The notes below the pieces were generated by a model, which was given only the letters and a program-made list of their open reading frames with translations, ran no database searches and was not told where the DNA came from. Positions 18,731-62,429 of a DNA stretch of 64,000 bases are shown in pieces. The position numbers were made by a program, and so were the translations under genes. Each line of letters starts with the position of its first letter. Within the stretch, counting starts at the first letter, position 1. Source of the DNA: Roseospirillum parvum (lineage in GTDB: Bacteria > Pseudomonadota > Alphaproteobacteria > Rhodospirillales > Rhodospirillaceae); assembly GCF_900100455.1 (NCBI RefSeq), contig NZ_FNCV01000003.1, positions 62,001 through 126,000 of the forward strand. The letters run 5' to 3'.

Positions 18731-20153
18731 CCACGGTCTCGGCACCGGTATTCTCCTGATCCTGGGGCGTCGCGGCGGACTGCGCGGTCTGCCCTGCGGC
18801 CTGGTTGTGTTGGGCCTGGCCGTGGCCGGCCTGTTGGGCGGGCCTTTGGCCGCCCGGCCGGCCGGGGCGGAAACCACCATCATCCGCGACGCGGAGGTGG
18901 AAGGTATCATCCGCGATTGGACCGTGCCACTGTTCCGCGCCGCCGGACTGGCCCCGGAAACCCTGCGCCTGCGCATCATCGCCGACGACCAACTGAACGC
19001 CTTCACCACCGGCCAGGGGCGCCTGTTCCTGAACACCGGGACCCTGGCCGCCGCCGAGACACCGGACGAGATCATCGGCGTCATCGCCCACGAGGTGGGC
19101 CACATGGCCGGCGGCGACGTGATCAAGCTGAAGGATCAGATCGAGCAGGCCCAGGTGACCTCGCTGATCACGGCGCTGCTGGGCGCGGCGGCCGGCGCCG
19201 CCACCGGGCGCGGCGACGTGGCTAGCGGCATCATGCTGGGCGGGCAGGGCGTCGCCATGGGCCAGTTCTTCGGCTTCAGCCGCACCCAGGAGGCGATGGC
19301 CGATTCCTTTGCCCTGCGGGTGCTCGACGACACCGGGCAATCGGCGCAGGGCCTTTTGACCTTCTTCGAACGCCTGGGCGACCAGGACCTGCTGCCGACC
19401 TCGTCCCAGGCCCTGTGGGCCCGCACCCATCCGCTGACCGGCGACCGCATCGCCGCCGTGCGCCACCATGTGGAGACGACCAGCGCCGAGGTGCGCCCGG
19501 CCGGCCCGGACGAACAGGCGCGGCACGCCCGGATGGTCGCCAAGCTGACCTCGTTCCTGAAAAGCTTCGGGCTGACCATGCGTCAGTACCCGCCGGAAGA
19601 CACCTCGCTGCCGGCGCGCTACGCCCGGGCCATCGCCTACTATCGGCACAACGACCTCAAGGAGGCGTTGGTCGAGATCGACGGCCTGCTGGCCGATCAC
19701 CCGGACGACCCCTACTTCCACGAGCTGAAGGGCCAGATGCTGTTCGAGAACGGCCGCCTGGAACCGGCCGTGGCCAGCTATCGGCGGGCCGTGGAGCTGG
19801 CGCCGGGGCGCACCCTGATCATCCTCGGCCTGGCCCACGCCCTGGTCGAAAGCGGCCGGCCGGAGGATCTGGCCGAGGCCCAGGAGGTGCTTTCCCCGGC
19901 GGTCAGCCACGAGACCGACAATCCCTTTGCCTGGTGGCTGGTCGCCAACGCCTATGGCAAGGACGGCAAGATCCCCATGGCCGCCTATGCCGAGGCCGAG
20001 CGGGCGATCCTGCTCGGCAAGCCCGAAGAGGCCCTGTACCACGTGCGTAGGGCGATGTCGGAAACCGAGAAGGGCACCCCCTTCTGGTTCCGCCTGGAAG
20101 ACGCCGAGGCCGAGGCCGAGAACCTCAAGGAAAAGATGGCCCGCCAGCGCTGA
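18720..20153 (+). CDS. M48-family metalloprotease with TPR repeats (BepA-like)
   Basis: Periplasmic zinc protease of the BepA/YfgC type, which in E. coli controls outer-membrane protein assembly. The 477 residues begin with an N-terminal signal segment to about residue 50. The zinc motif is HEVGH at 124-128, with the third ligand Glu in TQEAMADSF near 186. A plug-like loop and about four TPR-type helical pairs follow from residue 295. Start GTG at 18720 follows AAAGGGGG at good spacing. The stop overlaps the hpnG start by one base (TGATG), so the two are translationally coupled. Confidence 0.92.
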   Translation: MRLIHGLGTGILLILGRRGGLRGLPCGLVVLGLAVAGLLGGPLAARPAGAETTIIRDAEVEGIIRDWTVPLFRAAGLAPETLRLRIIADDQLNAFTTGQGRLFLNTGTLAAAETPDEIIGVIAHEVGHMAGGDVIKLKDQIEQAQVTSLITALLGAAAGAATGRGDVASGIMLGGQGVAMGQFFGFSRTQEAMADSFALRVLDDTGQSAQGLLTFFERLGDQDLLPTSSQALWARTHPLTGDRIAAVRHHVETTSAEVRPAGPDEQARHARMVAKLTSFLKSFGLTMRQYPPEDTSLPARYARAIAYYRHNDLKEALVEIDGLLADHPDDPYFHELKGQMLFENGRLEPAVASYRRAVELAPGRTLIILGLAHALVESGRPEDLAEAQEVLSPAVSHETDNPFAWWLVANAYGKDGKIPMAAYAEAERAILLGKPEEALYHVRRAMSETEKGTPFWFRLEDAEAEAENLKEKMARQR

Positions 20154-20866
20154 TGAGCACTCTGCCCCCGATTGGTCTGATCACCGGATTGTCCATGGAA
20201 CGCCGGGCCCTGAAACGCCTGCGCGGCCAGGGCGTTGTCGTCACCTGCTCGGGCATCGGCCCGCGCCGCGCCCGGGCCGCCGCCGAGCGCCTGCTGGCCG
20301 AGGGGGCGACGGCGCTGATCAGTGCCGGCACCGCCGGCGGACTGACCGACACCACCGCCCCCGGGCATCTGATGGTGCCCGCCGCCGTGGTTTCCACCGA
20401 GGGGGTGCGCCTGGATGCCGATGCCGAGTGGCACGCCGCCGTGCTGGACGCGCTGGCCCCCCTCGACCCCGACCCGGGGCGCCTGCTGGGTAGTGATCTG
20501 CCGATTCTCACCGAGGCCGAGAAGCGCCGTCTGGGGCGGGAGATGGACTGTCTGGCCGTGGACATGGAAAGCCACGCCGTGGGCGCCGTCGCGGCCCAGG
20601 CCGGGGTGCCCTTCCTGGCCCTGAGGGTGGTCACCGACACGGTGGATCGCCAGCTTCCCGCCGCCTTGGGCCAGGCCTTCACCCGCCAGGGCGAGTTGCG
20701 CCCGGGTGGGCTGTTGCTCGGCCTGGCCCGGCGGCCCTGGGAACTGGGTCAGATGGGGCGGCTGAAAAAGGACGCCGACGCCGCCATGGCCACCCTGCGC
20801 CACCTCGCCCGGCTGCCGCTGCCCCGGCCGGCGGCACCGCCTACCGACCCGGGCCGAGCAGGCTGA
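20153..20866 (+). CDS. hpnG: HpnG-like adenosylhopane nucleosidase/phosphorylase
   Basis: Nucleoside phosphorylase superfamily protein of 237 residues. In hopanoid producers HpnG releases adenine from adenosylhopane to give ribosylhopane, the step after HpnH. Family features are GLSMERRAL, TCSGIGPRRARAAAERLL, SAGTAGGL and the base-binding VDMESHAVGAVA with VVTDT. It starts at the last base of the M48 protease stop and its 3' end overlaps hpnH's 3' end by 26 bp on the opposite strand. The convergent neighbour hpnH strongly supports the hopanoid assignment. Confidence 0.9.
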   Translation: MSTLPPIGLITGLSMERRALKRLRGQGVVVTCSGIGPRRARAAAERLLAEGATALISAGTAGGLTDTTAPGHLMVPAAVVSTEGVRLDADAEWHAAVLDALAPLDPDPGRLLGSDLPILTEAEKRRLGREMDCLAVDMESHAVGAVAAQAGVPFLALRVVTDTVDRQLPAALGQAFTRQGELRPGGLLLGLARRPWELGQMGRLKKDADAAMATLRHLARLPLPRPAAPPTDPGRAG

Positions 20867-21854
20867 CCTTCAGCGCCTTGAGGGGGTTGCCGACCGTGTC
20901 GTCGACGGCGGTCGGCTCGTAGCCACAGTGCATCATGCAGTTGTCGCACTTGGGGTTGTTGCCGGTGCCCCAGGCTTCCCAGTCGGTGTTCTCCATCAGC
21001 TCCTGGAAGGTCGGCACGTGGCCTTCGCCGATCAGGTAGCAGGGTTGCTGCCAGCCGAACACGTTGCGCGTCGGGTTGCCCCAGGGGGTGCACTGGTAGG
21101 GCTGGTTGCCGGCCAGGAAGTCGAGGAACAGCGAGGACTGGCTGAACCGCCAGCCGCGCCCCTTGCCCATCCGGAACAGCTTGCGGAACAGGGCCTTGGT
21201 GCGCTCGCGGCCGAGGAACATGGATTGCTCCGGGGCGTCCTCGTAGGCGAAGCCGGGCGACACGGTCACCCCTTCCACCTTCAGGTCGTGGCAGACGAAG
21301 TCGAGGAAGGCGCTCAGGCGTTCCACATCGGCGTTGTCGAACACCGTGCAGTTGACGGTGACCCGGAAGCCCTTGGCCCGGGCGGCGCGGATGGCCGACA
21401 CGGCGCGGTCGAAGACGCCTTCCTGGTCGACCGCCTGGTCGTGGTGTTCGCGGTCGCCGTCCAGGTGGACCGAGAAGGTCAGGTAGGGGCTGGGCGTGAA
21501 GCGCTCCAGCCGCTTCTCCAGCAGCAGGGCGTTGGTGCACAGGTAGACAAAGCGGCGCTGCGCGATCAGCCCGGCCACGATGTCCTCGATGTCCTTGTGC
21601 AGCAACGGCTCGCCGCCGGGGATGGAGACGATGGGCGCGCCGCAGGAGCGGGCCGCCTCCAGGCACTCCTCGACCGACAGGCGCTGGTTCAGGATGTGGT
21701 CCGGGTGGGCGATCTTGCCGCAGCCCTGACAGGCCAGGTTGCAGCGGAACAGGGGTTCCAGCATCAGCACCAGGGGGTAGCGCCGCTGCCCGCCAAGCTT
21801 CTTCCTGAGAATGTAGGCGCCAACGCGGAACTGCTGGATGAGGGGTACGGCCAT
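20841..21854 (-). CDS. hpnH: HpnH, radical SAM adenosylhopane synthase
   Basis: Joins adenosine to diploptene to make adenosylhopane, the entry to C35 side-chain hopanoids (bacteriohopanetetrol and related). The 337 residues carry a radical SAM cluster motif with Cys38, Cys42 and Cys45 (CNLACQGC), GGEPLLH after it, and a C-terminal Cys cluster in CDNCMMHCGYE. The start MAVPLIQQFRVGAYI is typical of HpnH. It is a monocistronic, minus-strand gene convergent with hpnG, an arrangement that keeps two successive enzymes on opposite strands. Confidence 0.96.
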   Translation of the reverse strand: MAVPLIQQFRVGAYILRKKLGGQRRYPLVLMLEPLFRCNLACQGCGKIAHPDHILNQRLSVEECLEAARSCGAPIVSIPGGEPLLHKDIEDIVAGLIAQRRFVYLCTNALLLEKRLERFTPSPYLTFSVHLDGDREHHDQAVDQEGVFDRAVSAIRAARAKGFRVTVNCTVFDNADVERLSAFLDFVCHDLKVEGVTVSPGFAYEDAPEQSMFLGRERTKALFRKLFRMGKGRGWRFSQSSLFLDFLAGNQPYQCTPWGNPTRNVFGWQQPCYLIGEGHVPTFQELMENTDWEAWGTGNNPKCDNCMMHCGYEPTAVDDTVGNPLKALKVSLLGPGR

Positions 21855-22195: not shown

Positions 22196-25100
22196 ATGCC
22201 TCAGTATGCTGTCCTGGGTGTGGTGCACCAGGGGCCCGTTTTCAGGTATGTGCGGGCGCTGGATCACGAGCGTGGGGCGCGCGTCATCCTCAAGGCGGCC
22301 AACACCGACGACCCGAAGGCGGCCAACGACACGGCATGGCCGGCGGTTCTGGAGCAGGAATTCGGGGTTCTGTCGCTGGGTGGCGGGCAACGTATCCTGC
22401 GGCCGGTTTCGCTCGACCTGTTCAACGGCGGACGGGCCATCCGCTTCGCCGATGCCCCCGGCGTCGTCCTTTCCGAGGCCCTGAAGGGCGGCCCGGTTCC
22501 CTGGCGCCGGGCCCTGGCCTGGGCGGCCGACATCGCCGATGCGCTGCAGGACCTGCACGACGGCTGGATCGTCCATCGCACCATCAACCCGGCAAGTTTC
22601 CTCTGGAACCCGGAAACCGATCAGCTGCGCCTGATGGACGCGGCGTGGGCGGTGAAACGCGATCCCGGCATGCCGTACAGTGTCGACTCCGAGGGGCTGG
22701 TGGGGGCGCTGGCCTACCTGTCGCCGGAACAGACCGGGCGCACCGGCTCGCCGATCGACCACCGCGGCGATCTGTATTCCCTGGGCGCCTTGCTGTTCGA
22801 GGCGCTGACCGGCGAGGTGCCGTTTCCGGCGGCCGAGCCGATGGAGGTGATCCACGCCCATCTGACCCGCCCCGTCCCCGATGCGAGCGCCCGCAACCCC
22901 GATGTTCCGCCGCCGGTGGCGGCGGTGGTCGCCCGCCTGCTGGCCAAGGACCCCGGGGAGCGCTACCAGAGCGCCTTCGGCCTGCGGGTCGATGTGGAGA
23001 GCCTGCTGGCCCAGGGGCGGGCCGGCGCGCCCCTCGACACGGTGTCCCTGCATGCCGTGGACCCGCCCAGCAACCTCAAGGCGCCGCAGCGGCTGCACGG
23101 GCGCAACCGCGAAGTCGCGGCCCTGCGGGCGGCCCATGGCCGGGCCCGGCAGGGCGCCTTCGAGATGGTCATGGTGGGCGGGGAGTCGGGCTGCGGCAAG
23201 ACCCGGCTGGTGCAGGAGCTGGAACGCGCGGTGGCGGCGGCGGGCGAGCGGTTCGTGGCGGTCAAGCTGGACCCCTCCGCCAGCGCCATGCCCCATCTGC
23301 CGCTCAGCGCGGCGCTGGGGCAACTGGTCGCCGACCTGCTGGCCCGGGGCGAGGGGGCGGTCGAGGCCTTCCGCGACGCCCTGCCGGAGCACCTGGAGGA
23401 GAACGCCGCCTTGGCGGTGGAGCTGGTTCCCGGGCTTGGCGGCGTGCTGCGGCCGGCCGCTTCGGCGCCGGCCGTTCCCACCCAGGAGGCCCAGAGCCGC
23501 GCCCTGCACATCCTGCGGGATCTGATCGACGCCTTCACCGCCCAGGGGCGGGCGCTGGTGCTGTTTTTCGACGACCTGCAATGGGCCGACGCCGCCTCGT
23601 TGCAGGCCCTGGCCGCCCTGGGCCGCGACCGGGAGCTGCACGACCTGCTCATCCTCGGGGCCTATCGCGACAACGAGGTGGGGGAGGGGCATCCGCTGCG
23701 CGAGACCCTGGCCACCCTGCGCGAGGCCCCGGTGGCGGTGTCCGAGTTCCACCTCTCAAGGCTCGATGGCGGGGCGGTGGCTGCCCTGGTGGCCGACTGC
23801 CTGCACCGGCCGGTCGAGGACGTCGCCGACCTGGCCCAGGTCTGCGCCGCCAAGACCCTGGGCAATCCGTTCTTCCTGAGCCAGTTCCTGCACACCCTGG
23901 TCCGCGGCGGCTGTCTGGCTTTCGATCACCGGCGGGGCCGCTGGGAGTGGCAGCCCGAGGCCGTCGGCCGGATGGCCGCCGCCGACAACGTGGCCGGCCT
24001 GATGGTCGAGCGGCTGCACACCCTGCCGGCGGCGACCCAACGGGTCCTGGTGCTGAACGCCTGCGCCGATGCCGCCGTCGATCTGGCCACCCTGGCCGCC
24101 CTGTGCGACCAGCCGCTGGCCCAGACGGCGCGGGCCATGGCCCATGCGGTGGATGCCGGGCTGGTGCAGGTCAGCGGACCGCACGGCGGCGACGGGACGC
24201 CGGGTCGCCCCTCGGCGGACCACCCGCAGGCCACCTGCCGCTTCGTCCATGACCGCATCCAGGAAGCGGCGCTGGCCCTGCTGCGTCCCGACGAGCGGCC
24301 CGCCGTCCACCTGCGCATCGGGCGCACCCTGCGTGACACCCTGGATGCCGGCGGGCTCGAGGAGCGCCTCTTCCAGGTGATCTATCACTTCCAGTGGGCG
24401 CGTGCGCTGCTGGACGATCCGGCGGAGCGTCTGGCGGTGGCCGGGCTGGCCCTGGCCGCCAGCCGCAAGGCCGCCGCCACCGGGGGCTTCGGGCCGATGC
24501 TCGACCATGCGCGGCTGGGGCTGGCGCTGCTGCCGCCGCAGCCCTGGGCCGCCGCCTACGAGTTGACCCTGGGCCTGCATGGGCAGTGCGTGGCCGGGGC
24601 CTTCATCACCCACCAGCACGATTACCTCGCAGCCATGACCCAGGCGGTGCTGGATCACGCCGCCACGCCCTTGGACAAGACCCTGGTCGTCGAATACCAG
24701 GTCCTCAAGGCCAACGCCGACGGCGCCATGGCCGAGTCCATCGACCTCGGTCTGGCCTTTCTGGAAGAGTTGGGGGTGTCCTTCCCGCGCCATCCGACGG
24801 GCGAGGACATCGGCGCCGGACTGGCCCAGGTCCAGGCGGTGCTGGCCGGGCGCGGCGCCGAGGATCTGGCCGACCTGCCCGAGATGACCGACCCCGTCGC
24901 CCACGCCTTCATGCGTCTGTGCAACGCCATGGCCGGCCCGACCTACAATGCGGAACCGGCCCTGTTCCTGTGCATGGTGTTCAAGCAGGTGGAATGGTTC
25001 GTCCGCTACGGCAACTGCGCCGACGCGGTGGCCGGCTATTCCACCTATGCCATGGCCTTGTGCGTGGTGCCCCGCCAATACCGCGAGGGACAGGCCTTCG

Positions 25101-27361
25101 GCGAGTTGGCCTTCCGGCTGGCCGAACGCTACAAGGCCGGGCATCTCAAGGGGCGGCTGCACCTCAACGTCTATCTGTTCGTCCATCACTGGCGCCACCA
25201 CCTGGGCGAAACCCTGGCCCCCCTGATGGAGGGCTACCGTCAGGCATACAGCCATGGCGACTTGCTGTACGCCTCCCTGAACTCGGTGGTCTACTGCCAC
25301 CACACATGGTGGATCGGCACCCGACTGCCCGAGGTCGAGGCCATCATGGCCGAGCGTCACGCGGTGATCCAGGACGCCTACGGCCACCACGAGGTCGCCC
25401 GCTGGACCCGCCTGTTCCGGCAGACCGTCCGCAACCTGCGCGCCGACACCCCGGACCCGGTGGCGCTTGAGGGCGACATCTTCGACGAGCGGGTCGGCGC
25501 GCCGGCCGCCGACGAGCCCGACCAGACGTTTGTGCTGCTCTATCACCTGTGCAAGCTGATCCTGGCCGTGACCTTCGAGGACCGGGCGCGCATTTCCCGC
25601 CATCTGGCGGCGGGCCTCGACTTCCTGCCGGCCTGCAACGGCATCGTCATCGTGCCGGTGTTCCAGTTCTTCGGCTTCCTCGGCCGGGTGCTGCTGCTGC
25701 GCCATCCCGAGGCCCCGCCGACCCCGCAGGCGGCCCGGGACATCCGCGCCGCCCTCGAGGTCCAGGCCGAGGAGATGCGCCAGTGGGCCGAGCACGGGCC
25801 GATGAATTTCGCCCACAAACATGCCCTCATGGCCGCCCTGCTGGCCTGGCTCGACGGCGACCTTGACGGCGCCCTGGGTCACTTCGAGGCCGCCATCGAC
25901 GGCGCCCGGCGCCATGGCTACCTGTGGGATCAGGCGATCATCCAGGAATGGCTGGGCCGGGTCTGCCGGGAGCAGGACCGTCCCCAACTGGGGGCCATGA
26001 CCCTGCGCGAGGCGTTGCGCGGCTACGCGACCTGGGGGGGCGGGGCCAAGGTCGCCCAAATGGTCGCCCGTCACGGCGCCCTGCTGAGCGGCAGTGGGCT
26101 TGCCCCGGGGGGCGACGGCGGTGGCGAGGCCGACAGCGCCGAGGCGATTACCCACCAGGAGCTGGATCTGGGGGCGGTGCTGAAGGCCTCCCAGGCGATT
26201 GGCGCCGAAATCGTGCTGGGGCGCCTGCTCGACCGCATGATGCAGACCGTGTTGGAAACCGCCGGAGCTGATCGCGGCGTGCTGCTCAGGGTCGGGGCCG
26301 GTGGCGGGCTCAGGCTGTGGGCCGAGAAACGGGTGGGCGAGCCGACCCGGGTGCTGCCCGAGGCCAGCGATCCGGCGACCGAGCAATTGCTGCCCCTGGC
26401 CCTGGTCAACCGGGTGCTGGCCTCGGGCCAGACGATGATCGTTCCCGGCACCGCGTCGGACGGGCGGGGCGACCTTGATCTGTCCCTGGAGCGCCACGCC
26501 ATCCGCTCCGCCCTGTGCCTGCCGATCCGCGTGCGGGATCAGGCCATCGTGCTGCTGTACCTGGAAAACCGGGTGACGCCCAACGTCTTCACCCACCAAC
26601 GGGTCAGGGTGCTCGACCTGCTCGCCGGTCAGATCGCGGTGTCGTTGGAGAATGCTCGGCTGTACGAGGAGCTCGAGGCGCGGGTGGCCGAACGGACCCG
26701 GGAGTTGCAGGACAAGATGTCGGAGTTGTCCGAAGCCTACGAATCGGTCAGCAAGATCCAGGTCGAGCTGGAGGCCCAGGCGGTCGAGCTGATGCGGGCC
26801 AACGACATCACCGAGGCGGCCAACCGGGAACTGGTGGAGAAGAACGCCCTCATCCAGCGCATGGCCTCCACCGACGCCCTGACCGGCCTGTGCAACCGGC
26901 GCCATTTCGATCACACCCTGGCCAAGGAGCTGGAGCGCGCCAGGCGCTATGGCAAGGCCCTCAGCATGGCGATTGTCGATATCGACCATTTCAAGCGGTT
27001 CAACGACCGCCATGGCCATGCCTGTGGCGACCGGGTGCTGGAAACGGTGGCCGGGGTGTTGACGGCGCGGGTCCGAACCGCCGACACGGTGGCCAGGTGG
27101 GGGGGCGAGGAATTCTGCGTCCTGATGCCGGAAACCGATCTGGAGGGGGCGCTGAGGCTGATGGAGGACATCCGCGCGGCGATTGCCGCGACCAGCCTGC
27201 CCGATGTCGCGGACTCCCTGACCGCCAGTGTGGGGGTGGCGACGCTGGACCCGATCGAGGATCAGGACGGCCTGTTTCAGCGGGTCGACGCGGCGCTTTA
27301 TGTCGCCAAGGAAAAGGGACGCAACCAGGTCCGGTTGCACCGCCAGGACCGCATCGTGTGA
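22196..27361 (+). CDS. Giant hybrid: kinase-like domain, AAA ATPase, helical repeats, GAF and GGDEF diguanylate cyclase
   Basis: A 1721-residue cytosolic signalling protein. Residues 1-275 form a Ser/Thr-kinase fold: ATP lysine K33 (VILK), DFG-type Asp148 kept, SPEQTGR and DLYSLGALLFE present, but the catalytic HRD is HRT (127-129), so phosphotransfer is doubtful. A AAA/STAND-type ATPase follows with Walker A GESGCGKT (about 329-336) and Walker B LVLFFDDLQWAD near 455. About 800 residues of helical repeat come next, then GAF (about 1320-1490), coiled coil, and GGDEF (1558-1718) with GGEEF near 1635, metal Asp in IVDIDHFKRFND and an I-site RTAD. So c-di-GMP synthesis is likely and product-inhibited. 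The kinase-AAA architecture is known in cyanobacterial and proteobacterial hybrid kinases. GTG one codon upstream is an alternative start. Confidence 0.93.
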   Translation: MPQYAVLGVVHQGPVFRYVRALDHERGARVILKAANTDDPKAANDTAWPAVLEQEFGVLSLGGGQRILRPVSLDLFNGGRAIRFADAPGVVLSEALKGGPVPWRRALAWAADIADALQDLHDGWIVHRTINPASFLWNPETDQLRLMDAAWAVKRDPGMPYSVDSEGLVGALAYLSPEQTGRTGSPIDHRGDLYSLGALLFEALTGEVPFPAAEPMEVIHAHLTRPVPDASARNPDVPPPVAAVVARLLAKDPGERYQSAFGLRVDVESLLAQGRAGAPLDTVSLHAVDPPSNLKAPQRLHGRNREVAALRAAHGRARQGAFEMVMVGGESGCGKTRLVQELERAVAAAGERFVAVKLDPSASAMPHLPLSAALGQLVADLLARGEGAVEAFRDALPEHLEENAALAVELVPGLGGVLRPAASAPAVPTQEAQSRALHILRDLIDAFTAQGRALVLFFDDLQWADAASLQALAALGRDRELHDLLILGAYRDNEVGEGHPLRETLATLREAPVAVSEFHLSRLDGGAVAALVADCLHRPVEDVADLAQVCAAKTLGNPFFLSQFLHTLVRGGCLAFDHRRGRWEWQPEAVGRMAAADNVAGLMVERLHTLPAATQRVLVLNACADAAVDLATLAALCDQPLAQTARAMAHAVDAGLVQVSGPHGGDGTPGRPSADHPQATCRFVHDRIQEAALALLRPDERPAVHLRIGRTLRDTLDAGGLEERLFQVIYHFQWARALLDDPAERLAVAGLALAASRKAAATGGFGPMLDHARLGLALLPPQPWAAAYELTLGLHGQCVAGAFITHQHDYLAAMTQAVLDHAATPLDKTLVVEYQVLKANADGAMAESIDLGLAFLEELGVSFPRHPTGEDIGAGLAQVQAVLAGRGAEDLADLPEMTDPVAHAFMRLCNAMAGPTYNAEPALFLCMVFKQVEWFVRYGNCADAVAGYSTYAMALCVVPRQYREGQAFGELAFRLAERYKAGHLKGRLHLNVYLFVHHWRHHLGETLAPLMEGYRQAYSHGDLLYASLNSVVYCHHTWWIGTRLPEVEAIMAERHAVIQDAYGHHEVARWTRLFRQTVRNLRADTPDPVALEGDIFDERVGAPAADEPDQTFVLLYHLCKLILAVTFEDRARISRHLAAGLDFLPACNGIVIVPVFQFFGFLGRVLLLRHPEAPPTPQAARDIRAALEVQAEEMRQWAEHGPMNFAHKHALMAALLAWLDGDLDGALGHFEAAIDGARRHGYLWDQAIIQEWLGRVCREQDRPQLGAMTLREALRGYATWGGGAKVAQMVARHGALLSGSGLAPGGDGGGEADSAEAITHQELDLGAVLKASQAIGAEIVLGRLLDRMMQTVLETAGADRGVLLRVGAGGGLRLWAEKRVGEPTRVLPEASDPATEQLLPLALVNRVLASGQTMIVPGTASDGRGDLDLSLERHAIRSALCLPIRVRDQAIVLLYLENRVTPNVFTHQRVRVLDLLAGQIAVSLENARLYEELEARVAERTRELQDKMSELSEAYESVSKIQVELEAQAVELMRANDITEAANRELVEKNALIQRMASTDALTGLCNRRHFDHTLAKELERARRYGKALSMAIVDIDHFKRFNDRHGHACGDRVLETVAGVLTARVRTADTVARWGGEEFCVLMPETDLEGALRLMEDIRAAIAATSLPDVADSLTASVGVATLDPIEDQDGLFQRVDAALYVAKEKGRNQVRLHRQDRIV

Positions 27362-33237: not shown

Positions 33238-34292
33238 CAGTCCCGATCCTTCCCGTTGCTGGGCGTGTAGAGCACCTTCAGCGCCTTGCGCTGGCGCACC
33301 AGCTCGACCCCCTCGGCAAAGCGGTCCAGCGGCAGGCGATGGGTGACCAGCGGCGTGGGGTCCAGGGCGCCGCTGCGGAGCAGGTCGAAAACCTCCCGCT
33401 GCTCGCCGAGGGCGCCGGAATAGGCGCCGACGATGCGCCGTTCGAACTTGAACAGGTCGTTGATCGGGAAGTCGGCCGGCTCGTCCGGTCCGGCGTGGGC
33501 GAACAGCACCACCGTGCCGCCCTGGCGGCTGAGGGTGAGGGCGGCGCGCAGGGGGCCGGCGCCGCCCACCGTGTCGAACACCGCGTCGGCGCCCAGGCCC
33601 TCGGAAAGCTCGCCCACCGCCGCCTGCGCCGCCTCGCCGGGCGGCGCGGCCGCCGCCGCTCCCAGGCTGACCGCCAGTTCCATGCGCTCGGCGACCGGAT
33701 CGACCACCAGCACCTTGGTGCCGGGCAGGGCGGCGCGGATTATCAGAAGGTGCAACAGGCCCATGCTGCCGCCGCCCTGGACCACCGCCAGGCCGCCCTC
33801 CCGCGGCAGCTCGCCCTTGTGGACGCTGCGCAGCACGCAGGCCCCGGGTTCCAGGAACACGGCGGCCTCGTCGGAAACATGGTCGGGGAGCTTCTGGGCC
33901 GCCTGGGCGGTGGCCCGGGGACGGACCAGGATGCGGTCGGCGAAACCGCCCGGGAACAGCAGGTTCTCGCGGAAGGTGTCGCACATGGTTTCGGCACCAC
34001 GCCGGCACAGCGCGCATTCCCCGCACGGCACGTGGTGCGGCACGGCGACCCGGTCGCCCGGGGCGAAGCCCTCGACCCCCGGCCCGATGGCCGCGACCTC
34101 GCCAACGATCTCGTGGCCGAGCACCGTGCCCGGCGCGGCGGCCCCGGTGACAAGCTTGAACATGTCGGTGCCGCAGAACCCGACCACCCGGAGATCAAGC
34201 AGCAGTTCGCCGGGGCCGGGGGCTGGTGTGTCGAACGGCTGGAGCGTCGTTTGCTCGCCGCCGAGGCAGGTCACGGCGTTCGCGTGCGTCAT
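33237..34292 (-). CDS. Zinc-dependent medium-chain dehydrogenase, first of a coupled pair
   Basis: MDR-superfamily dehydrogenase of 351 residues: FCGTDMFKL and VLGHEIVGEV (catalytic zinc), CGECALCRRGAETMC (structural zinc), GGGSMGLLHLLI (NAD(P) binding). It differs clearly from its partner gene, so the pair is not a recent duplication. ATG at 34290-34292 has GGGGAAG upstream; frame-open codons before it lack support. Upstream lie three 16-bp tandem repeats. Substrate unknown. Confidence 0.9.
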   Translation of the reverse strand: MTHANAVTCLGGEQTTLQPFDTPAPGPGELLLDLRVVGFCGTDMFKLVTGAAAPGTVLGHEIVGEVAAIGPGVEGFAPGDRVAVPHHVPCGECALCRRGAETMCDTFRENLLFPGGFADRILVRPRATAQAAQKLPDHVSDEAAVFLEPGACVLRSVHKGELPREGGLAVVQGGGSMGLLHLLIIRAALPGTKVLVVDPVAERMELAVSLGAAAAAPPGEAAQAAVGELSEGLGADAVFDTVGGAGPLRAALTLSRQGGTVVLFAHAGPDEPADFPINDLFKFERRIVGAYSGALGEQREVFDLLRSGALDPTPLVTHRLPLDRFAEGVELVRQRKALKVLYTPSNGKDRD

Positions 34293-34798
34293 GGGTGTTC
34301 TTCCCCGCGTGGACAGGCCGGCGGCTTCCAGGCCGAAGGAGAAAGGCGGCGCCTGGTCGTCGAATGTCCTGGTCGTCGAATGTCCTGGTCGCCGATTTTC
34401 CACCCTGGCTGGCGTCAACATCAATCGGCGCCACCACCAGAAAGCAGAGCAATTTCACATGCCAGACCCGAAACGTCTGGCGACCGGATTTTGCAGGACC
34501 TGCTCTAGCGCGTCTTCCCCACGGGCTCAAGGAGTTTGCCCGGGGGAGGTCGGCCCGGGGCCCGGCGAAATCAACCGAGTGCGAGCTCCGGCATCCAGGG
34601 CTTTTGTGGCGTGGGGCTTGGCTGGGGGTTATCCAGGTTGTCATTCCCTCATGGTTGAAGCACTATGAAATCTGGCACACTGGAGAAGATCCAGAGCGGA
34701 CCGCGACGAATGATTTGCGGCAATATCAAGAATCTAGGCCATGTTCGGTAATTCAAAATCCACGGAATATGGTCCAATGCTCAGCTGGTAGTCGACAA
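34293..34798. other. Divergent promoter region between dehydrogenase pair and GGDEF-EAL regulator
   Basis: About 500 nt, AT-richer towards the right (34620-34800). Besides the 16-bp repeats at 34352-34399 it shows no gene. Promoters for the minus-strand dehydrogenases and the plus-strand regulator are expected here. Confidence 0.4.
34352..34399. repeat. Three 16-bp tandem repeats upstream of the dehydrogenase pair
   Basis: CCTGGTCGTCGAATGT at 34352-34367 and 34368-34383 (identical), a diverged third unit at 34384-34399. It is about 60 bp upstream of the dehydrogenase start, so it could be an operator array. Confidence 0.8.
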
Positions 34799-37000
34799 AT
34801 GCCAGAAAATCGCTTTATGGACGACGATGGGCCATTCACGTTCGCGGATGACAACGTGGAAGCCTCATCAAAAGAAAGCAAGTCATGGTCTATCCTCGTC
34901 GTCGATGATGAGGGCGATGTCCATGACGCCACGCGCATTGCCTTGCGTGGTCTGCTCATCGAAGGGCGGAAGCTTCGGCTCTTTCATGCGTTCTCGGCGG
35001 AGGAAGCCTACCAGATTCTGGCCGATGAAGCCGACATCGCGGTCGTTCTGCTCGACGTGGTGATGGAAACCGAGGATGCGGGGCTTCAGCTTGTCCGCCG
35101 GATTCGCAACGACCTGGGAAACAGCTCGGTTCGCATCGTCCTGCGGACCGGCCAGCCGGGGTACGCGCCGGAAATCGACACCATCCGCACGTATGACATC
35201 AACGATTACAAGACCAAGTCCGAGCTGACCCGCATTCGTCTGTTCACCACCCTGGCGGTGGCGTTGCGCTCCTATCACCAGATCCATCAACTGGAGATGA
35301 GCCGCAGGGGGCTTGAACTGATCATTGCCGCCAGCACCGGTCTTGGCAAACTGCGGGCCTTGCGACTGTACGCGGAAGGCGTCGTTACGCAGTTGTGCTC
35401 CCTGCTGGGTCTGGCGCCGGAAGGCTTGGTGTGCGCCGCCTCCAGGATCGATGGCGAGCCGGCGCGGGTGATCGCGGCCGCCGGCCGATACCGGGACCTG
35501 ATCCAATGTCCCCTGGACGACCTGCCCGACGACGACGCGCGCGCCATTCTGCACGCCTGTCTGGACAAGCGGCAGCACGTTCTCGGCGGCGGCATATGCC
35601 TTTATTTCGGCGTAAGTGACATGTCCGGGATTGCAGCATTCGTGGATACCCGGGAGGAAATCGACCCGGTCAACAGGAACCTGATCGACGTTTTCTGTGC
35701 CAATGCCACCGTTGGATTCGAGAACGTTCTCCTTCAGGAGCGTCTTTATGACTACGCGTACACCGACCAGCTTCTCAATGTCCCGAACCGGAAGGGACTG
35801 ATTGATATTGTCGACCGGCAGACCGGCGATGGGGAGATGGTCCTTGCGCTGATCGACCTGGACGACTTCGCCGAGATGAATACGGTGCTTGATCATCATT
35901 TCGGCGATCAGGTTCTGAGCGTCGTGGCCAGGCGCCTGGCCAGTATTTTTGGTCCGCCCGCCGTCCTGGCGCGGGTCGGCGGCGATACGTTCGGCCTGCT
36001 TGGATCGGCGGAGTTGGTCACGCCCAACCGGATCGAGGCCGTCTTCGCCGCTCCCTTTGACCTGAACGGCGAGATGCTGCGGGTGTCGGCCACCAGCAGC
36101 CTGATCAAGGTCGACCATCAGGTGAGCGCCAACGTGCTCAAGGATGCCAGCATTGCCTTGAAGCAGGCCAAGATCCTCAAGCGCGGGCGGGCAACGCTGT
36201 TTTCAGAGGACCTCAGCGCGAGGGCGCGGGAACGCATCCACATGCTGACCGATTTGCGGGCCGCGTTTTCCGCGGAACGCCTGTTCCTGGCCTACCAGCC
36301 GCAGGTCGATCTGCCGAGCGGCAAGGTCCTGGGCGCCGAAGCCCTGCTGCGCTGGAAGACGGAGGATGGCCGCTCCATCCCCCCCGACCAGTTCATCCCG
36401 CTGGCCGAGCAGTCCGGCTTGACGGTGCCGATCGGCGAGTGGGTTCTGCGCACGGCCTGCCATCAGTTGAAGCGCCTTACGGAGGGCGGTCACGCCAACT
36501 TCCGCATGGCCATCAATGTCTCCCACACCCAGTTCCGCGAGCCGAGCTTTGTCCCCGCCCTTGGCTGGGCGCTGCAGGACTGCCGGGTCGATCCCAGCCA
36601 GCTTGAACTGGAGCTGACCGAATCGGTGGCCATCGGCCATATCGAGTCCACCTCGGCCAAGATCCAGGAAATCCGCAACATGGGCATCACGGTGGCGATG
36701 GACGACTTTGGCACCGGCTATTCGTCGCTGAGCGTCCTCAAACAGCTCAACGTCGACCGCCTGAAGGTCGACCGCAGCTTCGTCATGGAGATCGGCGAGG
36801 ATGGCGATGCCACGGGCATCGCCGAACTGGTCATCGCCCTGGGCCGGCAGTTGCGTCTGGTGACCATTGCCGAGGGCGTCGAGAGCGAGGAACAGCGGCG
36901 ACAACTGCTGAAAATGGGATGTCACGAAGGGCAGGGCTATCTGTTCGGACGCCCCATGCCGGCAAAAGAGTTCGAGGCCTGGATGGCGGCACAGGGATAG
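34799..37000 (+). CDS. Response regulator with REC, DUF3369, degenerate GGDEF and intact EAL domains
   Basis: 733-residue c-di-GMP regulator. REC domain 30-155: acidic pair D36/D37, phospho-acceptor D86 in VVLLDVVME, T117 and K138. A DUF3369 sensor region (about 165-330) is followed by GGDEF with GGDTF (394-398), no I-site RxxD, so synthesis is doubtful. The EAL domain from about 495 keeps the catalytic set: EALLRW, INVSHTQF, LELTESVAI, AMDDFGTGYSSL, LKVDRSFV, IAEGVESEE, QGYLFGRP. It should hydrolyse c-di-GMP, perhaps with GGDEF as GTP sensor. The histidine kinase gene 94 bp downstream is the likely partner. The start is uncertain: no clear ribosome-binding site, and ATG at 34817 is an alternative. 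Confidence 0.93.
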   Translation: MPENRFMDDDGPFTFADDNVEASSKESKSWSILVVDDEGDVHDATRIALRGLLIEGRKLRLFHAFSAEEAYQILADEADIAVVLLDVVMETEDAGLQLVRRIRNDLGNSSVRIVLRTGQPGYAPEIDTIRTYDINDYKTKSELTRIRLFTTLAVALRSYHQIHQLEMSRRGLELIIAASTGLGKLRALRLYAEGVVTQLCSLLGLAPEGLVCAASRIDGEPARVIAAAGRYRDLIQCPLDDLPDDDARAILHACLDKRQHVLGGGICLYFGVSDMSGIAAFVDTREEIDPVNRNLIDVFCANATVGFENVLLQERLYDYAYTDQLLNVPNRKGLIDIVDRQTGDGEMVLALIDLDDFAEMNTVLDHHFGDQVLSVVARRLASIFGPPAVLARVGGDTFGLLGSAELVTPNRIEAVFAAPFDLNGEMLRVSATSSLIKVDHQVSANVLKDASIALKQAKILKRGRATLFSEDLSARARERIHMLTDLRAAFSAERLFLAYQPQVDLPSGKVLGAEALLRWKTEDGRSIPPDQFIPLAEQSGLTVPIGEWVLRTACHQLKRLTEGGHANFRMAINVSHTQFREPSFVPALGWALQDCRVDPSQLELELTESVAIGHIESTSAKIQEIRNMGITVAMDDFGTGYSSLSVLKQLNVDRLKVDRSFVMEIGEDGDATGIAELVIALGRQLRLVTIAEGVESEEQRRQLLKMGCHEGQGYLFGRPMPAKEFEAWMAAQG

Positions 37001-60512: not shown

Positions 60513-62429
60513 ATGAGCAGCACCACCCCGGAGGCCCCCGAGGATCTGCGCTTCGAAGCCGAAGTGACCCGCATCCTGGATATCGTGGTCAACGCCCTTT
60601 ATTCGGAGAAGGAGATCTTCCTGCGCGAGCTGATCTCCAACGCCTCCGACGCCTGCGACCGGCTGCGCTACCAGGCCCTGACCGAGCCCCACCTGACCGA
60701 GGGCGACGCCGACTTTCGGGTCGAGCTTGAAATCGACAAGGCGGCCCGCACCCTGACCGTGCGCGACAACGGCATTGGCATGAACCGCGATGATTTGATC
60801 GCCAACCTGGGCACCATCGCGCGCTCCGGCACCGGCGAGTTCCTGAAGCGGCTGAGCGGCGATTCCAAGGCCGACATCAGCCTGATCGGCCAGTTCGGCG
60901 TGGGCTTCTACTCGGCCTTCATGGTCGCCGGCCGGATCGAGGTGCTGACCAGGAAGGCCGGCGAGGATCAGGCCTGGCAGTGGGCCAGCCAGGGCGACGG
61001 GCGCTTCACCGTCGGCCCGGCCGGCAAGCCGGCGCGCGGCACCGAGATCACGCTGCACCTGAAAGAGGGCGAGGACGAGTTCCTGGAAGCCCAGCGCCTG
61101 CGCCACATCGTCAAGACCTACAGCGACCATATCGCCATTCCGGTGGTCCTGAAAGCCGCCGCCGAACCGCCCAGGGAGGGCGAGGACGCGCCCACCGACG
61201 AGACCCTCAACACCGCCTCGGCCCTGTGGACCCGGCCCAAGAGCGAGATCACCGAGGAGCAGTACAAGGAGTTCTATCACCACGTCGCCCACGGCTTCGA
61301 CGACCCCTGGCACACCCTGCACCTGAAGGCGGAAGGGGCGATCGAGTACACGGCGCTGCTCTTCGTGCCGGGCACCAAGCCGTTCGATCTGTTCCAGCCG
61401 GAGCGCAAGCCGCACGTCAAGCTGTACGTCAACCGGGTGTTCATCACCGACGACTGCGAAGGCCTGCTGCCGCCCTACCTGCGCTTCATGCGCGGCGTGG
61501 TCGACAGCCCCGACCTGCCGCTGAACATCAGCCGCGAGATGCTGCAGAACAATCCGGTGCTGGCCAAGATCCGCACCGGGTTGGTCGGGCGCATCCTCTC
61601 CGACCTCAAGAAGCGGGCCGAGGACAAGGAGGCCTACGCCACCTTCTGGGCCGCCTTCGGCGCGGTGCTCAAGGAGGGCCTCTACGAGGACTTCGCCAAG
61701 CGCGACGAGATTCTCGACCTGTGCCGTTTCCGCACCACCAACGGGTCCGGGCTGGCCAGTCTGGCCGAGGTGGCCGGGCGCCTGAAGGAAGGCCAGAAGG
61801 CCATCTACTACCTGACCGGCGACGACCCCGAGGCGCTGATGCAGAGCCCGCAGATCGAGGGCTTCAAGGCCAAGGGCATCGAGGTGCTGCTGCTCACCGA
61901 CCCGATCGACGAGTTCTGGGTCAGCTCGGTCGGGACCTATAAGGAGCATCCCATCAAGTCGGTCGCCCAGGCCGGCAAGGACCTCTCGGAGATCAAGGGC
62001 GAGGCGGCCGACGAGGCCGAGGAGAAGGCCGAGGAAGCGCCCGAGGACAAGATCGCCGGTCTCATCGGGGTGATGAAGACGGCCCTCGGCGAGGCGGTGA
62101 AGGAGGTCCGCGCCTCCGAGCGGCTGCGCGAAAGCCCGGTCTGCCTGAGCAGCGACATGGACGGCATGAGCCTGCACCTGCAACGCCTGCTCAAGGCCCA
62201 CAATGCCGACGCCCCGGAGACCCCGCGGGTGCTCGAGATCAACCCCCGCCACCCGATCATCAAGGCCCTGGCCGAGCGCGCCGAGGCCACCGCCAACGAC
62301 GCCGAGGTGGGCGAGGTGGCCCACCTGCTGCTCGATCAGGCGCGCATCGTCGAGGGGGAGGCGGTGCCCGACCCGGCGGCCTTCGCTCGGCGCCTGTCCA
62401 AGGCCCTGGAGCAGGGCCTGCTGGGCTGA
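60513..62429 (+). CDS. htpG: Hsp90-family chaperone HtpG
   Basis: 638-residue ATP-dependent chaperone. GHKL ATPase: ALYSEKEIFLRELISNASDA, RDNGIGMNRDDLI, GQFGVGFYSAFMV; the middle domain and C-terminal dimerisation domain follow. Shorter linker than eukaryotic Hsp90. Start ATG at 60513 follows AAAGGA; two-residue upstream context excluded. A strong terminator follows. Confidence 0.97.
   Translation: MSSTTPEAPEDLRFEAEVTRILDIVVNALYSEKEIFLRELISNASDACDRLRYQALTEPHLTEGDADFRVELEIDKAARTLTVRDNGIGMNRDDLIANLGTIARSGTGEFLKRLSGDSKADISLIGQFGVGFYSAFMVAGRIEVLTRKAGEDQAWQWASQGDGRFTVGPAGKPARGTEITLHLKEGEDEFLEAQRLRHIVKTYSDHIAIPVVLKAAAEPPREGEDAPTDETLNTASALWTRPKSEITEEQYKEFYHHVAHGFDDPWHTLHLKAEGAIEYTALLFVPGTKPFDLFQPERKPHVKLYVNRVFITDDCEGLLPPYLRFMRGVVDSPDLPLNISREMLQNNPVLAKIRTGLVGRILSDLKKRAEDKEAYATFWAAFGAVLKEGLYEDFAKRDEILDLCRFRTTNGSGLASLAEVAGRLKEGQKAIYYLTGDDPEALMQSPQIEGFKAKGIEVLLLTDPIDEFWVSSVGTYKEHPIKSVAQAGKDLSEIKGEAADEAEEKAEEAPEDKIAGLIGVMKTALGEAVKEVRASERLRESPVCLSSDMDGMSLHLQRLLKAHNADAPETPRVLEINPRHPIIKALAERAEATANDAEVGEVAHLLLDQARIVEGEAVPDPAAFARRLSKALEQGLLG

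Follow-up and report, generated by a model that had tools for sequence, protein, structure and literature searches.

This study focused on a single long reading frame of Roseospirillum parvum, located in a window of 64,000 nucleotides (the whole stretch of DNA analysed, positions 62,001 to 126,000 of contig NZ_FNCV01000003.1). Its product has, in order, a kinase fold, an AAA ATPase, helical repeats, a GAF domain, a helical linker and a GGDEF domain (Table 1), and by its motifs and predicted structure it is probably a dead kinase joined to a predicted ATP-driven oligomerising receptor and a predicted c-di-GMP-making domain. An earlier reading, made from the nucleotide sequence alone (the sequence-only reading), had described one frame with kinase, AAA, GAF and GGDEF parts, and this was borne out: the frame is uninterrupted, and four Pfam matches exceed the cut-off, namely Pkinase (residues 92-258, 55.8 bits), AAA_16 (300-486, 104 bits), GAF (54 bits) and GGDEF (152 bits). 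In the homologue alignment, a methionine occupies the place of the start in L013, the homologue from Rhodospira trueperi, and in L094 (both MPQYA), as well as in L096 (MSQYA); the frame of L096 is open further upstream of the aligned methionine, so that its true start is uncertain. The protein ends in the GGDEF domain, and no HisKA or HATPase match to it was found in Pfam up to E 0.1. A second copy of the gene was not found in the genome, the other 27 of the 28 matches falling in the GGDEF part, some including the linker.

Table 1. Features of the reading frame, in window coordinates
Feature	Coordinates	Strand	Basis
Whole ORF, 1721 aa plus stop	22196..27361	+	Uninterrupted frame; open frame 22193/22196-27361, 1721 aa counted from ATG
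Hanks-type pseudokinase domain (candidate), residues about 4-275	22205..23020	+	Pfam; AlphaFold2; Foldseek to PknB
Catalytic loop HRTINPAS: T129 at HRD Asp, S134 at catalytic Asn	22574..22597	+	Hybrid-kinase alignment and PknB alignment
DFG position, DAA, D148 kept	22637..22645	+	Hybrid-kinase alignment and PknB alignment
STAND-like nucleotide-binding oligomerisation core (predicted), residues about 300-700 (AAA_16, helical domain, winged helix)	23093..24295	+	Pfam, model, fold matches, conservation
STAND core motifs: Walker A 328-336, Walker B 456-465, GxP 556-558, winged-helix His 685			
Helical repeat (TPR-like) superhelix (predicted), residues about 686-1298	24251..26089	+	Predicted helix pairs; weak TPR_CHK1 match under cut-off
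GAF domain, residues 1343-1484	26222..26647	+	Pfam
Linker with ERT signature (AERTREL, residues 1498-1504), S-helix-like	26648..26863	+	Helical judged from sequence
GGDEF diguanylate cyclase domain (predicted), residues 1557-1711, GGEEF and RTAD	26864..27328	+	Pfam; alignment to solved cyclases

The kinase motifs were placed using an alignment of 61 hybrid kinases and an alignment to solved PknB. The HRT reported earlier in place of HRD was confirmed as H127-R128-T129, so that threonine occupies the position of the catalytic Asp that characterizes active Hanks-type kinases; the same position is Asn in L013, L094 and L096, and Asp in L152, these five proteins forming the close clade. The accompanying claim that the other motifs are kept was only partly correct. 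While the β3 Lys (K33), the αC Glu (E55), the DFG Asp (D148) and SPE are retained, the catalytic-loop Asn is replaced by Ser in all five clade members, DFG has become DAA, and the glycine-rich GxGxxG loop is absent from the window kinase in both alignments. With HRT, S134 and DAA the domain shares with the CP1 pseudokinases a Hanks-type kinase in which at least one catalytic motif is degraded. An AlphaFold2 model of residues 1-295 (47 sequences, mean pLDDT 91.7) showed both lobes, and its best solved match in Foldseek was PknB (E 7.6e-21, TM-score 0.78/0.87).

Pairwise dN/dS among four sequences, by a simple counting method that gives rough values, was 0.16-0.33 for the C-lobe, 0.16-0.52 for the N-lobe, 0.19-0.41 for the AAA part and 0.14-0.18 for the GGDEF domain, placing the C-lobe within the range of most other domains, the GGDEF domain tighter, and the N-lobe and AAA part looser than GGDEF. 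By these ratios the kinase looks maintained by purifying selection, and gene decay was not supported, there being no sign in dN/dS of relaxed selection in either the kinase or the STAND parts. Invariant columns among the four sequences were fewest in the N-lobe (35/87, compared to 114/185 in the C-lobe), which forms half of the nucleotide pocket and thus shows less conservation than any other domain in the comparison. Predicted to fold and apparently under purifying selection, the domain is a good pseudokinase candidate that, by its motifs, most likely transfers no phosphate and most likely serves as a docking or autoinhibitory surface. Nowhere else in the 3.5 Mb genome does a Pkinase match exceed the Pfam cut-off (the match to this domain lies at C15:84454-84969, window 22454-22969); at C15:10183 a frame of 709 residues gives one further match, below cut-off.

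The pseudokinase may bind nucleotide, given the retained Lys, Glu and DFG Asp. A parallel is described in PMC4718504 for ILK, where Ser likewise replaces the Asn and ATP is nevertheless bound, with one cation held by the DFG Asp alone. If ATP (or ADP) in the pseudokinase pocket itself set GGDEF activity, the protein would be an energy-state sensor, and the conservation of K33, E55 and D148 in the window protein and its four relatives, the bilobal fold predicted at high confidence and the precedent of ILK all agree with this. It is nonetheless quite unlikely, because the glycine-rich loop is missing, S134 replaces the metal-binding Asn, the N-lobe is less conserved than the other domains compared, and a likely ATP switch with invariant residues, the STAND core, adjoins. 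That the kinase has retained activity through some unconventional mechanism, phosphorylating its own GGDEF or GAF domain or a partner, or catalysing another ATP-using reaction such as AMPylation, appears very unlikely; although K33 and D148 are kept, and other degraded kinases (CASK, SelO and SidJ) still react according to parts of PMC4718504 and PMC12599244, the clade has lost the HRD Asp, the catalytic Asn and the DFG Phe-Gly, save that L152 keeps the Asp, and the cyanobacterial kinase SpkE, without the HRD Asp and other residues, showed no activity in the work described in PMC2176072.

Two features were absent from the sequence-only reading, the STAND-like nature of residues 296-1300 and the ERT helix ahead of the GGDEF domain. 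An AlphaFold2 model of residues 296-1330, computed with 38 relatives (pLDDT 88.6), consists of a nucleotide-binding domain, a helical domain and a winged helix, followed by helical repeats, which is the arrangement that defines STAND proteins, although in a predicted and not a solved structure. The top three Foldseek matches were 6mfv (E 4.8e-9), which is PH0952, a STAND with a TPR sensor, MalT (8bob, 2.7e-7) and Apaf-1 (3shf, 1.5e-6). A second aligner recovered 8bob (Z 19.9 over 383 residues), 6mfv (Z 18.6 over 615, rmsd 8.7) and Apaf-1 as 3sfz (Z 18.4 over 408), but its list is partly generic, as APPBP2 (Z 19.7), an APC/C subunit (18.5) and ORC/Cdc6 ATPases (up to 16.5) fell in the same score range, each matching one part of the model only. 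The Walker A and B motifs, the GxP and the winged-helix His expected of a STAND are all present, and K335, D459, D460, G556 and H685 are identical in 39/39 proteins, with P558 in 35/39. AAA_16 was likewise present in all 39 members including the window protein, and nSTAND1 matched 18/39 at E 0.01, the nSTAND matches of the window protein itself falling under the cut-off. A profile of residues 296-1330 matched no solved chain among PDB sequences at E 1e-3, and the STAND call consequently rests on predicted fold and motifs.

In PMC6468293, the GxP and winged-helix His are given as ADP contacts of STANDs, which have ADP-closed and ATP-open, multimerising forms, and bacterial serine-threonine kinases are listed among them. 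The AAA and repeat part of the window protein looks like such a module and is likely an ATP switch, judging from motifs and model, with the repeat superhelix of the model as its probable arm and sensor. The earlier suggestions that the protein is ligand-gated, and that ATP state acts through the pseudokinase, are interpretations. Control of c-di-GMP output by ATP would be served more plausibly by the STAND-like ATPase than by the pseudokinase, because the switch residues of the former are invariant, whereas the catalytic residues of the latter vary in the family.

At the C-terminus, the claim of an intact GGDEF domain stood up well. The GGEEF active site is complete, the RxxD inhibitory site reads RTAD (1627-1630), and the match to PF00990 and an alignment with WspR and other solved cyclases agree in giving both the fold and the GG(D/E)EF signature of a diguanylate cyclase, so that the domain looks intact and is predicted to be active. 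The linker before it carries AERT(R/K/Q)EL in the window protein, L013, L094 and L096, while no ERT was found in the linker of L014, L015 or L144. Passages of PMC1592074 describe the ERT signature as that of a signalling helix (S-helix), thought to prevent constitutive activity, and S-helices adjoining GAF and GGDEF domains. This precedent, together with the conservation of the linker (42/65 columns), would allow the GAF domain to be the sole real input, acting through the ERT helix on the GGDEF domain while the kinase-STAND part is a non-switching scaffold; such an arrangement is unlikely, as none of the 39 proteins departs from the conserved residues of the STAND switch and neither the kinase nor the STAND part shows signs of relaxed selection. 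Parts of a c-di-GMP network are present in the genome, since genome-wide there are 31 GGDEF matches, 14 EAL matches (13 over cut-off) and 2 PilZ matches (1 over cut-off). A second c-di-GMP protein is encoded about 7 kb downstream (window 34160-36997, + strand), with a receiver match under cut-off, DUF3369, GGDEF (55 bits) and a strong EAL match (236 bits).

The relatives examined comprise 61 rows, each a locus from searches seeded with the window protein, among the matches listed, and for that reason they are not a random sample. Before all counts, the window protein itself (L093) and L095 (with the same alignment values as L013) were taken out; L113 and L118, with kinase and AAA in separate frames, were left out of the tree, and L150 out of the site counts. 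Outputs were assigned by sequence motif, except for L014, L015 and L130, which the motif patterns missed and which were assigned by Pfam. The 61 rows of the AAA-region tree divide into 35 with a histidine kinase, 9 with GGDEF (7 GGEEF and 2 GGEEM), 5 with a class III cyclase, and 12 that are cut off or unassigned. The expectation that the kinase-AAA architecture usually ends in a histidine kinase was borne out among the matches listed: an output could be assigned in 49 rows, and in 35 of them it is a histidine kinase. In 17 of the histidine-kinase rows the motif assignment depended on DxGxG alone, and here HATPase_c was over the Pfam cut-off; another 17 carry two histidine-kinase motifs, and L117, cut off before HATPase_c, is assigned without Pfam confirmation. 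The five class III cyclase rows and the distant GGDEF rows were confirmed by Pfam, the former (L126, L130, L131, L133 and L151) joining a class III adenylate/guanylate cyclase to a kinase-STAND-GAF front end. Eleven of the 35 rows with a histidine kinase (L097-L099, L101-L105, L107, L108 and L122; loci L155-L164 and L169) gave no HisKA match up to E 1e-5 despite their HATPase_c, and these may be CheA-like for that reason; an HTLKG stretch in L107 looks Hpt- or CheA-like. Several of the 11 lack the β3 Lys and have GFG in place of DFG.

The HRD Asp was kept in 40/60 sampled rows, the Lys in 40/59, the DFG Asp in 37/60 and all three in 27/59, in a table of 61 rows that includes fragments and in which each site is filled in 59 or 60. 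The alignment with kinase-AAA hybrids suggested earlier as a check thus upheld the loss of this Asp in the window protein but not its singularity, as 20 of the 60 sampled hybrids are also without it. On the AAA-region tree, a quick tree without bootstrap in which 18 of 58 inner branches are drawn open, at least 9 changes are needed to account for the HRD state, and at least 4 for GGDEF against other outputs, the starred branches forcing 2 changes for the seven GGEEF rows. A class-wide search added a further GGDEF member, L181 (GGEEL). Six GGDEF members were found outside the clade of the window protein (L014 from Marinobacter bryozoorum, L015 from a Desulfobacterales MAG, L100, L144, L146 and L181), and all six keep the Asp of HRD or HKD. 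Among the 49 rows with an assigned output, the HRD Asp is lost in 12/40 non-GGDEF rows and in 4/9 GGDEF rows, the latter four being one clade. A tie between loss of the HRD Asp and GGDEF output was considered and not supported, the number of independent pairs (one on well-supported branches, 4 on all branches) being too small for a test of association. As GGDEF output is also found behind kinases whose HRD Asp is intact, it and the dead kinase do not represent a coupled design; neither is unique, since relatives elsewhere in the sample show each. Sequence and predicted fold do support the pseudokinase, AAA, GAF and apparently intact diguanylate cyclase parts of the sequence-only reading.

Related hybrids were present in 14/73 genomes of the family (E 1e-40), at least 26/297 of the order (E 1e-30), at least 6/385 of the class (full-length query, E 1e-80) and at least 40/398 of the phylum (E 1e-40), the own genome being included each time; the order, class and phylum searches scored the two best candidates per genome, making genome and copy counts lower bounds. 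The close clade occurs in 5/73 family genomes, one member being split over two contigs that were not joined. The flanks compared, about 6 kb to the left and right of the gene in R. trueperi (L013), about 5 kb for G248 (L175) and the downstream side alone for G123 (L176), have no neighbouring gene in common with the window. Just upstream of the frame in the window are a phosphorylase-superfamily gene (20153-20866, +) and a radical SAM gene with DUF3463 (20841-21854, -), assigned by Pfam and overlapping at their 3' ends, which look like the hopanoid genes hpnG and hpnH.

Several known systems share parts of this architecture. The STAND ATPases MalT, PH0952 (6mfv) and Apaf-1 resemble the predicted structure in their core of nucleotide-binding, helical and winged-helix domains followed by repeats, and in the Walker, GxP and winged-helix His motifs, but the window protein has a pseudokinase in front and GAF-GGDEF behind; in MalT the effector is DNA-binding. 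The TOMM system kinase/cyclase fusion family (TIGR03903) is by name a similar combination, and the window protein gave a partial match of 91.1 bits, far from the curated cut-off of 705.75 and with its best stretch at residues 299-759; the cyclase of that family is of another class than GGDEF. The plant receptor ZAR1 is a STAND. It oligomerises and works with the pseudokinases ZED1 and RKS1, and ZED1 carries Asn (N173) at the HRD Asp position, as stated in the part of PMC6634424 that concerns it, the same residue as in the Rhodospira homologues. As these are separate plant proteins with an immune output, the likeness is a functional analogy only.

Fungal Chk1 is a class X protein, and the window protein resembles it in a weak Pfam match to CHK1-like repeats. 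Chk1, Mak2 and Mak3 (the latter two labelled class X in portions of PMC9069115 and PMC6001611) have an N-terminal Ser/Thr kinase, AAA_16 and GAF, as does the window protein, and HstK and the cyanobacterial family III dual kinases (cbSTKIII), as covered in part of PMC2176072, have the N-terminal Ser/Thr kinase with GAF behind it. All of these end in a histidine kinase, whereas the window protein ends in GGDEF and has no C-terminal histidine kinase. Degraded kinases of this kind have been described before as CP1 pseudokinases. A 2025 review (PMC12599244) states that about 40% of that family is degraded and that each of its pseudokinases comes with a COG3899 ATPase, in many cases together with GAF (FhlA) or PAS. 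Like the window protein they are Hanks-type kinases fused to a predicted ATPase, often with GAF; the ATPase of the window protein, a Pfam AAA_16 match, may belong to COG3899. Neither GGDEF nor diguanylate is mentioned in the text of the review. The frequency of degraded kinases among the sampled hybrids agrees in kind with CP1, and a dead kinase is not unusual here.

The reading that best accounts for these results, to which a probability of about 0.6 is attached, is that of a one-component STAND-type receptor that carries a pseudokinase and has a diguanylate cyclase as its output, and that would be switched by an exchange of ADP for ATP and consequent oligomerisation. Domain order, predicted folds, motif states, conservation and selection are results of the analysis; the switch steps are inferred from STANDs in general, and oligomerisation, enzyme activity and the action of an inducer belong to the model. 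At rest, ADP would sit in a closed STAND core (residues about 300-700), kept shut by the repeat superhelix (about 690-1300) and perhaps also by the pseudokinase (1-275). An inducer, either a small molecule or a protein, would act at one of three places (repeats, pseudokinase or GAF domain) to open the core, ADP would be exchanged for ATP, and the protomers would oligomerise. The oligomer would gather the GAF, ERT helix and GGDEF parts, so that GGDEF domains could come together in pairs and make c-di-GMP from GTP, with the product acting as a brake at the RxxD site. Throughout, the pseudokinase would serve for docking or autoinhibition, and a bound nucleotide might stabilise it. Against this model stand the lack of a sequence-level match to a solved structure, the window protein's own nSTAND matches falling under cut-off, the partly generic list of the second aligner and the lack of a shared neighbour gene in the flanks compared; geometry may be a further difficulty, as STAND oligomers are often larger than dimers and cyclases need GGDEF pairs.

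An unlikely alternative is that the pseudokinase is the built-in partner sensor of the STAND switch, a covalent bacterial counterpart of ZED1/RKS1-ZAR1, in which a modified or bound partner would dock on the dead cleft and force release of ADP, the resulting oligomer giving a burst of c-di-GMP in place of an immune response. If this were true, pseudokinase-gated STAND oligomerisation would serve bacteria generally as an input module to which different outputs (histidine kinase, class III cyclase or GGDEF) can be attached.

The receptor type itself is already known, and GGDEF output is a less common variant of the pseudokinase-STAND receptor. A description of the whole architecture was not found among the open-access papers searched, and one may well be recorded in subscription papers or protein-database annotations. 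With the STAND-type receptor reading, c-di-GMP would be one more output for receptors of the pseudokinase-STAND type, as a shared kinase-STAND-repeat-GAF front end occurs with histidine kinases, class III cyclases and GGDEF domains. Since a diguanylate cyclase output is easily measured, the role of degraded CP1-type kinases would be directly testable in this protein, and altering the dead pocket or the STAND switch while reading c-di-GMP would provide a handle on what such kinases do.
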